Origin: a virus
IMG/VR virus record: IMGVR_UViG_3300023223_000177
Coordinates: 1 to 32,575 of that record
DNA: 32,575 nt
Reading direction: 5' to 3' (one strand)
Position 1 is the first letter of the stretch, and every line of letters starts with the position of its first letter. Below are positions 22,491 to 26,454 of this stretch, one piece after another. Under the pieces are notes generated by a model. That model was not told the DNA's origin. It saw only the letters and a list, made by a program, of their open reading frames with translations, and made no database searches. The position numbers and the translations under genes were made by a program.

Positions 22491-22565
22491 TGGCTCAGGA
22501 TGTAGGGATCGAACCTACGACACAGAGCTTAACAGGCTCCTGCTCTACCACTGAGCTAATCCCGA
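22491..22565 (-). tRNA. trnN: tRNA-Asn (anticodon GTT)
   Basis: All arms fold on the minus strand: acceptor TCGGGAT with ATCCTGA (one G-U), D-stem GCTC/GAGC around AGTGGTA, anticodon stem GGAGC/GCTCT with loop CTGTTAA, variable loop GTGTC, and T-arm GTAGG/CCTAC around TTCGATC. The discriminator is G and CCA is encoded. It lies between two protein genes of the same operon. Processing would therefore be needed to free it from the mRNA, unless it has its own promoter, which I did not find. Confidence 0.95.
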
Positions 22566-25051: not shown

Positions 25052-25384
25052 ATGACAACACCTAATGATATAACAAAGATCGACTTCGCAGAGCTGGATA
25101 AGATGTACGCCAAGCAATTAACCAGAGAGCGTGAGCTTGAGCTTGAGAGCCTTGATAATATCGAGGAGTATAAGGGTAAGTGGAGGAATTTACATTTTAG
25201 GAAAGACGGCTCCTCAGTGTTGGATATGGACGATAGTTTTGATACGGAGGGGGCTGCTAAGGCGGATGTAGATATTTTCATCCCCGATTTTAAGCCGCCC
25301 GAGGAAATTTATTTCCTTTATACATCGGAGCGTATTCCGCATCGCGACTACTCACACACTATACAAATACCTTACACTGACTAA
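25052..25384 (+). CDS. Unknown acidic protein (110 aa)
   Basis: GGAGCCAAC precedes the ATG. The N-terminus is a charged helix (FAELDKMYAKQLTRERELEL), the middle is DGSSVLDMDDSFDTEG, and the end is aromatic-rich (PPEEIYFLYTSERIPHRDYS). No family is recognised. It is the last gene before the 656-base non-coding stretch and the terminator-like stem, so it closes the short rightward transcript. Confidence 0.65.
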   Translation: MTTPNDITKIDFAELDKMYAKQLTRERELELESLDNIEEYKGKWRNLHFRKDGSSVLDMDDSFDTEGAAKADVDIFIPDFKPPEEIYFLYTSERIPHRDYSHTIQIPYTD

Positions 25385-25429
25385 CCCCCTATACCTAAGT
25401 TAAAGGTGTTTACAGGTTGGTAGTGGGTG

Positions 25430-25510
25430 AAAGAGGGGTAGCACATGGGCTAGTGTCTGCGTGTCTTCCATGTCATAAATTACTAGCGAGATAAACTACT
25501 ACCCTTTTTT
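25430..25510 (+). terminator. Terminator-like stem with internal crossing helices
   Basis: A 12-bp stem can form between AAAGAGGGGTAG (25430-25441) and CTACCCTTTTTT (25499-25510), with the U-tract paired to the A-rich arm. GGTAGT at 25419-25424 can compete for the same 3' arm. Inside the loop, ACATGG/CCATGT (25443-25448 with 25468-25473) and GCTAGT/ACTAGC (25449-25454 with 25482-25487) cross each other. It would end the transcript of the Cro-like operon; the competing pairings suggest a regulated version. Confidence 0.5.
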
Positions 25511-25564
25511 ACACGCCAACTAAGTCAGTATGTAGGCCTATATAATATAACTTTATTTAGGGGG

Positions 25565-25593
25565 TTGCAAGCATATAAGGGATGATGTAGAGT
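25565..25593 (+). promoter_or_regulatory. Possible promoter ahead of the kissing-loop RNA
   Basis: TTGCAA (25565-25570), 17 bases, TAGAGT (25588-25593). Both boxes match four of six consensus bases. A start near 25600 would place the first kissing hairpin at the very 5' end of the RNA. A TATAAT at 25541-25546 has no matching -35. Confidence 0.3.
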
Positions 25594-25605
25594 TTAATAA
25601 CTAAA

Positions 25606-25681
25606 GCAGTTGCGGGACTGTGAAGAGACCTTTGAAGTAGACTTTGTGCCCGCACATAGAGTTTACCTCAGGGGTTTTTTT
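25606..25681 (+). ncRNA. Candidate structured RNA with a kissing-loop pair
   Basis: Hairpin 1 (25606-25621) is GCAGT-TGCGGG-ACTGT. Hairpin 2 (25637-25666) has a 12-bp stem, GTAGACTTTGTG with CATAGAGTTTAC, around the loop CCCGCA. The two six-base loops are perfectly complementary. Three of the stem-2 pairs and one in stem 1 are G-U in the plus-strand RNA, so the fold is better on this strand than on the other. A T7 run follows at 25675-25681, eight bases after the stem. It could be a stand-alone RNA of about 80 bases or part of a larger one. No known family is recognised. Confidence 0.5.
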
Positions 25682-25958
25682 ATGCCTCGATTCTATAGGT
25701 AACTTAGTAAAAGCCTTAACTGATTTGCTCCCGCTGCTAGACGCGGTATACAAGCTCTAGATACCTCGGGGGCACTTTGCTTGCAAAAGATTTCCGACCC
25801 GCTCAAATGCTTGATATAGGCTATGAGCACTAACACAGCGTTTTCGTACGATACTATGATAGTTCTTACAACTGAATTAAATGTAAGTCGGGGGTGAAGG
25901 GCAACACTAAAAAATAGCTAGCTGTGCTATACGAGGATAATATATATCTCCCTAGGTG

Positions 25959-25994
25959 CCGTTGTGATGTACGTGAGTATATCGGGGATAACGG
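25959..25994 (+). promoter_or_regulatory. GUGA-capped hairpin upstream of the leader ORF
   Basis: TGATGTAC and GTATATCG form eight pairs (two G-U) around a GTGA tetraloop, a GNRA loop. An outer CCGTT/AACGG stem (25959-25963 with 25990-25994) continues it past an asymmetric internal loop. It ends three bases before AAAGG, the ribosome site of a ten-codon ORF, and 46 bases before the cupin gene. Confidence 0.5.
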
Positions 25995-26004
25995 AAAAGG
26001 AACT

Positions 26005-26037
26005 ATGACTGAATTAAACATAACTAAAAGGAGATAG
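26005..26037 (+). CDS. Ten-codon leader ORF (MTELNITKRR)
   Basis: ATG preceded by AAAAGGAACT and ended by TAG, with that TAG lying just after the AGGAG ribosome site of the cupin gene at 26041. Ribosomes finishing here would be delivered onto the next start, so it may act as a translational lead-in. It begins ATGACTGA, like several other starts in this operon. It may not be made as a functional peptide. Confidence 0.35.
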   Translation: MTELNITKRR

Positions 26038-26040
26038 ATT

Positions 26041-26454
26041 ATGAAGATACTTTCATACGGTAAAGACGGAGGACAGGACTCAACAGTGTGGGGGTTTTGG
26101 TTAATTGAGATAAAGCCTTTATTTTCTGTGGCGTTTTTATGCTTTGAGAAAGGGTCAAGAGAAGTTTTGCATTCACATGCTTTTAATGCTTATACATGGT
26201 TTATTAGGGGGGAGGTGGAAGAACAACATTTAGATGGTCGTGTTATCACATGGAAACCAAGATGGAAACCCAAACTAACCCCTAGAGACACATTTCATAA
26301 GGTGTTTGCAACAAAAAGAACATTTGCCTTTACTGTCCGAGGTCGTTGGAAAAAGGAATGGGAAGAATATTCAACGCAAAAATCAGAATTTACAACATTA
26401 ACCAATGGGCGTAAAATTGTCGGGGTGCGCACAAAAAAGGAGGTGGGGCTATGA
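26041..26454 (+). CDS. Cupin-fold phage protein (137 aa)
   Basis: The HSH motif EVLHSHAFNAYTWFIRGEVE (H44, H46) and the later histidine in RDTFHKVFA (H86) match the metal-binding pattern of small phage cupins. A GxxxxEQHLDG turn separates the strands. Residues 98-120 (TVRGRWKKEWEEYSTQ) extend the barrel. Cupins of this size in phage genomes have no established activity; possible roles include a small-molecule-modifying enzyme or a binding protein. It has an excellent ribosome site (AAAAGGAGATAGATT) and is the first full gene after the structured non-coding block. Its stop overlaps the nucleotidyltransferase start. Confidence 0.7.
   Translation: MKILSYGKDGGQDSTVWGFWLIEIKPLFSVAFLCFEKGSREVLHSHAFNAYTWFIRGEVEEQHLDGRVITWKPRWKPKLTPRDTFHKVFATKRTFAFTVRGRWKKEWEEYSTQKSEFTTLTNGRKIVGVRTKKEVGL

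Follow-up and report, generated by a model that had tools for sequence, protein, structure and literature searches.

A hairpin and, directly 3' of it, a second hairpin of the intrinsic-terminator type with a loop complementary to that of the first make up a compact putative RNA element in the genome of a phage. The same layout recurs, with other loop sequences, in phages otherwise unrelated in sequence, and the conclusion that the loop-loop pairing is real and matters in this family is well supported by sequence comparison, given that relatives change both loops together. We propose that the element is a promoter-proximal leader RNA of ~80-100 nt that would act as a kissing-loop transcription attenuator, a reading to which we assign a probability of roughly 0.45.

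The element and its genomic setting

The window, that is, the whole stretch of 32,575 bases analysed here, is a complete IMG/VR virus record, a podovirus-type phage with a P22-like coat protein. The element lies on the rightward early side, in a 656-nt noncoding gap (25385-26040) with small ORFs only and no long ones. A Cro/C1-like HTH gene (24558) is followed by two small genes, the gap, a cysteine-dioxygenase-like gene and then a RusA-type resolvase and others. The phage gene of the cysteine dioxygenase/cupin family occupies 26041-26454, and related genes occur in large phages; a tRNA-Asn (GTT) gene is located within the leftward early operon (22491-22565, minus strand). The gap contains a second strongly structured stretch just 5' of the element (25383-25566), which begins at the stop codon of a 110-aa gene, is closed by AACCCCCTA/TAGGGGGTT and includes a long, itself terminator-like inner helix with CUACUACCC-U6 at its end. 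On the other side, 350 nt of noncoding sequence (25690-26040) separate the terminator from the next gene and contain a 9-bp long-range match, TTGCAAGCA/TGCTTGCAA, to positions 25565-25573.

All parts of the element are on the plus strand. The first hairpin, H1 (25606-25621, GCAGT-TGCGGG-ACTGT), consists of 5 bp closing the loop UGCGGG at 25611-25616. The second, H2 (25622-25681), contains 14 bp, an A/C mismatch and a further 12 bp, with the loop CCCGCA at its tip (25649-25654); its 3' arm ends in GGGG-U7, the U-run spanning 25675-25681. A stable hairpin (-30 kcal/mol) running into seven U residues is the form of an intrinsic terminator, and we read H2 as such. A simple terminator scan did not pick it up, probably owing to the mismatch and the pairing of the U-run. 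The exact complementarity of the two loops would allow a 6-bp kissing interaction between 25611-25616 and 25649-25654. The segment 25595-25690 folds with a predicted energy of -37.5 kcal/mol (z -5.3), and H1 by itself is weak, at -3.2 kcal/mol with the 6-nt loop and -5.2 kcal/mol with a competing 4-nt GCGG loop. Upstream, a weak candidate sigma-70-like promoter (TTGCAA-17-TAGAGT, 25565-25593, 8/12 matches) falls under the threshold of a promoter scan and gains weight only because the relatives carry promoter motifs at the same position. Together with the terminator, this candidate predicts a short RNA of ~82 nt (25600-25681) that would start shortly 5' of H1 and stop with the last U of the run. 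Directly 3' of the U-run, an ATG opens six codons only (MPRFYR-stop, 25682-25702), and the next gene start is 360 nt away. In an Rfam scan of the window, the tRNA alone passed the gathering threshold, and the element matched no family.

The sequence-only reading had described the first hairpin and, 15 bases later, a 12-bp stem with the loop CCCGCA (25637-25666, the upper part of H2), and both were located exactly to the base; the loops are indeed exact reverse complements, and the four G-U pairs are there, one in H1 and three in the upper H2 stem. Overlooked in that reading were the intrinsic-terminator form of the second hairpin, the sites resembling a promoter and the start codon further 3'; together, these make transcription attenuation the first hypothesis.

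Relatives with other complementary loops

Relatives of the element could not be traced by ordinary similarity: a DNA search with the gap against phages and plasmids gave no match, comparison of the gap with 43 capsid relatives yielded chance matches of 14-21 nt only, and the neighbouring proteins had no relatives among viral contigs. A pattern requiring both loops of the window and a U-run found the contig L110, where the element is intergenic, with unrelated stems, a 16-bp H1, the loops TGCGGG/CCCGCA and TTGACA-17-TAGTAT upstream. A relaxed pattern, still with the window's loop code, gave 33 hits, most of them due to chance, but L117 and L126 among them have genuine hairpins around both loops, together with a terminator and promoter motifs of the Bacteroidota type. 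The pattern hits L108 and L109 were rejected as lying inside ORFs. The identical loops of L110, L117 and L126 carry no meaning because the search was made with the window's code. Two strict patterns had no match in bacterial genome contigs, a result that, with the window's loop code assumed, does not imply absence of the element from bacteria.

Elements with different codes emerged once a descriptor allowed any complementary loop pair. These were a second L126 copy (TGTGCG/CGCACA), the capsid-relative podovirus G027 (ATTGCGC/GCGCAAT), Flavobacterium phage FCV-3 (AGTAGTGC/ACGCACTA), snusmum6-1 (AGTCGTCG/ACGACGAC) and Croceibacter phage P2559S (AGTGCAGA/CTGCAC), the last of which was first listed under looser thresholds and passes the standard ones too. 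Three hits were discarded by eye (L048, an inverted repeat; L109, coding; L137, with an intervening hairpin), and a looser descriptor was useless in AT-rich DNA, with 282 hits in Markov copies. Run on 1.69 Mb of non-redundant loci, the descriptor returned 10 hits, of which 2 look false and 4 had come via the window or the patterns; reversed sequence produced 4 and Markov copies 1-4, so that by itself the descriptor is only suggestive evidence of a family.

Altogether, at least nine complementary loop pairs were found among phages otherwise unrelated in sequence, with a shared layout in which a promoter is followed by H1 and then by the terminator hairpin H2, whose loop is the complement of the H1 loop. 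The members come from the capsid-relative podovirus, a phage contig without a known host, and Flavobacterium, Croceibacter and other Bacteroidota-like phages, the host groups of contigs being deduced from promoter style and neighbours. The length from H1 to the U-run is 76-99 nt in the nine members measured, and promoter motifs occupy the matching position: TTGACT-16-TATGGT in G027, the L110 motif given above, and TANNTTTG in the Bacteroidota-type members. Between the window and G027, the alignment score of 47, to which the shared U-run and ATG contribute, compares with 37 for the best of 1000 shuffles; in G027, the ATG at the corresponding place opens a 363-aa gene. Rfam scans of the member regions gave sub-threshold hits or none, and no description of the element was found in the open-access papers searched.

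One phage may hold two elements with different loop codes (L151, at 13666 and 14706; L126, at 2248 and 4827). The start of P2559S gp48 (L191, 33955) and morran9-1 gp042 (L192, 42-185) overlap the RNA element, and these annotated genes are probably mis-annotations. In the Bacteroidota-type members (L145, L191, L117, L151 and L126), H2 contains purine-rich internal loops located a few pairs beneath the kissing loop; these are AGUA/GAA (bulged-G-like) in FCV-3 and P2559S, and tandem GA in L117, snusmum and the second L126 copy, and could possibly form a bend or a protein site.

Covariation of the two loops

In a loop-blind test, ten Bacteroidota phage loci were screened for promoter and terminator only, which yielded 16 units with the TANNTTTG motif and a terminator at suitable spacing. 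A strong hairpin and an interval of 41-51 nt defined a subset of eight, delineated after the list had been seen, and loop complementarity of at least 6 nt was present in 6/8; the chance of such complementarity is 0.4-3.5% per unit. Four of the six were already known via their loops, and the two new ones, a second copy in snusmum6-1 and one in filifjonk9-1, are orthologues. Among 46 Flavobacterium records, the orthologues carry the loop codes GTGGAACG/CGTTCCAC, GTGAGACG/CGTCTCAC and GTGAGAAG/CTTCTCAC. In five Flavobacterium phage orthologues, 3/8 kissing pairs show double compensatory changes and 0/40 cells of the alignment are unpaired; both sides changed in 3/16 H2 pairs and 0/6 H1 pairs, and slid controls gave no doubly changed pair. 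The five rows represent only three distinct loop pairs and hence few independent events, all of them compensated and none broken. The two L126 paralogues (73% identity, E 6.5e-11) show the same tendency, with 2/6 kissing pairs and 3/4 upper H1 pairs doubly changed and no kissing pair broken; the pairs that fail are all in the H2 stem, where the ungapped structure misfits the second copy. The loop codes of these paralogues differ and are mutually mismatched.

These comparisons bear out the kissing interaction originally proposed for the window, which was to be abandoned if homologues altered one loop only: both loops change together in the orthologues and paralogues, and the podovirus homologue with a different complementary pair points in the same direction. 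They also bear on the possibility that the loops are seeds of a trans-acting small RNA for other RNAs, their mutual complementarity being secondary. C-rich or G-rich loops are common small RNA seeds, but targeting does not predict joint change of the loops in orthologues, and elsewhere in the window the RNA finds complements of at most 12 nt, a length reached at four sites and not beyond chance at any of them; we consider this the least probable of the readings.

Hardly more probable is the reading of the loop match in the window as a coincidence, with a plain terminator located behind a weak chance hairpin. The value of 1 in 4096 originally given holds for one loop pair and ignores ~250 hairpins of this kind per strand; H1 comprises just 5 bp, and the descriptor also matches 1-4 times per 1.7 Mb of Markov sequence and 4 times in reversed sequence. 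However, neither strand of the window contains another such pair (stems of at least 5 bp, 6-nt loops, gap of at most 60), and such a pair appeared in 0/40 dinucleotide shuffles of the whole window and in 2/3000 shuffles of the 656-nt gap. Moreover, the related phage G027 carries another complementary loop pair in a homologous frame, and the layout in the window equals that of the covarying family. We therefore regard coincidence as unlikely.

A possible attenuator or self-joining RNA

Under the attenuator model, RNA polymerase would make H1 first and then the 5' arm and loop of H2. Were the H2 loop to pair with the H1 loop in the nascent RNA, H2 could zip only partway, the base of the terminator beside the U-run would stay open, and transcription would enter the next gene; with the loops unpaired, or captured by another RNA copy or a factor, the full terminator would form and the short RNA would be released. 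The two hairpins, the terminator form, the covarying complementary loops and the start codon close downstream in most members are directly seen; what we infer is that the promoter is active, and with it the sequence of steps, the influence on termination and the signal behind the regulation.

The next ATG lies within 20 nt of the U-run in 9/11 members, compared with 18/138 terminators of the same genomes, a conservative control given that it includes some of the members. Such proximity leaves little room for a separate promoter, so that transcription of the next gene must, as a rule, read through H2. Geometry was assessed with a simple length model that took 2.8 A for each base pair and 6 A for each linker nucleotide, assumed coaxial stacking and used manually entered hairpin lengths. 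During loop pairing within one molecule, the model allows ~15/26 H2 pairs in the window, 13/24 in G027 and 8/12 in L110, which would make loop pairing and the full terminator mutually exclusive in these three; L117 and both L126 copies are borderline, and FCV-3, snusmum-1 and P2559S have linkers of a length that would let the loops pair with H2 complete. An earlier version that allowed H1 to pair with promoter sequence called all nine excluded; the later one is fairer.

The same geometry also fits pairing between molecules. The element might be a stand-alone small RNA that joins its own copies, the H1 of one molecule kissing the H2 of the next, in closed dimers or chains. The steric exclusion of same-molecule pairing in the window, G027 and L110 when both hairpins are complete would be escaped by head-to-tail pairing of two molecules, and a promoter just upstream with a terminator at the end suits an independent RNA gene. 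There is a phage precedent, the phi29 pRNA, whose two mutually complementary loops covary between phages (PMC12670572) and, hand in hand, build head-to-tail assemblies (PMC7357161). Two paralogues with mismatched codes on one contig would be expected if each recognised itself only, although the difference could be drift, and a start codon within 20 nt in 9/11 members is left unexplained. It is because of this placement that we rank the attenuator above the self-joining RNA, which seems somewhat unlikely. A combination of the two, in which the released short RNA binds nascent copies via one loop and shifts termination, like the antisense RNAs of plasmid attenuators, draws on the same features and would account for the separate codes of paralogues, but needs more steps than either simple model and appears quite improbable.

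Several points count against the attenuator itself. At equilibrium, the full terminator of the window (-30 kcal/mol) outweighs the loop pairing (-9.9 kcal/mol), so that any effect would have to be kinetic; mutual exclusion is, by the length model, not universal (FCV-3, snusmum-1, P2559S); neither a ligand nor a factor is apparent, and the loops vary too much for binding of either. In the window, there is no gene just after the U-run, the promoter is weak and H1 is short; given these features and the competing form of H1, the window copy could be a degenerate or RNA-only version.

It is conceivable, although we hold this only tentatively, that these elements belong to a widespread but so far unrecognised class of leader RNAs with which phages control early genes through an interchangeable kissing-loop code, either as ligand-free attenuators or as self-recognising, copy-counting RNAs. 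If so, any complementary loop pair would work, related phages that share hosts would quickly come to differ in code, and paralogues within one phage would keep their codes apart. Small RNAs of bacteria or phages rarely show covarying contacts between the loops of separate hairpins; such contacts recur here across phages unrelated by sequence, well-known phage isolates of Flavobacterium and Croceibacter among them, and escape Rfam. Short and self-contained, the element supplies naturally evolved alternative kissing-loop codes, and may explain the restraint of particular early genes in compact phage operons.

Among known systems, the noncoding RNAs GOLLD and ROOL are also associated with phages, have no known function and contain kissing loops that are conserved and covary (PMC12286853), but they are ornate and several hundred nucleotides long, in contrast to the 80-100 nt of the phage element (~82 nt in the window), which matches no Rfam model. 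The HIV-1 DIS likewise involves 6-nt GC-rich loop pairing, and the 8-nt loops of FCV-3 and snusmum keep 5' purines unpaired in the DIS manner; however, the DIS is a palindrome in which identical loops pair, whereas the phage element pairs two different loops. With the phi29 pRNA, the element shares two complementary, covarying loops within one small phage RNA. Unlike the pRNA, which has a three-way junction, pairs its loops over 3-4 nt and serves in the packaging motor, it folds into two successive hairpins, the second a terminator, with 6-8-nt pairing, and neither the three-way-junction fold nor an Rfam match was found. In the guanidine-IV riboswitch, a kissing loop hinders completion of the terminator stem (PMC11611296), and here, too, the loop of an upstream hairpin is complementary to a loop in the terminator region; start-codon placement and geometry together fit an attenuator of this type. 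In contrast to the fixed loops of the riboswitch, those of the phage element vary and covary, with no conserved ligand-binding loop, no Rfam match at gathering and no evident ligand, and the element is found in early regions rather than before guanidine exporter genes. By analogy, the best reading is that the element is a variable-loop counterpart of a guanidine-IV-style switch, from a family unlisted in Rfam.
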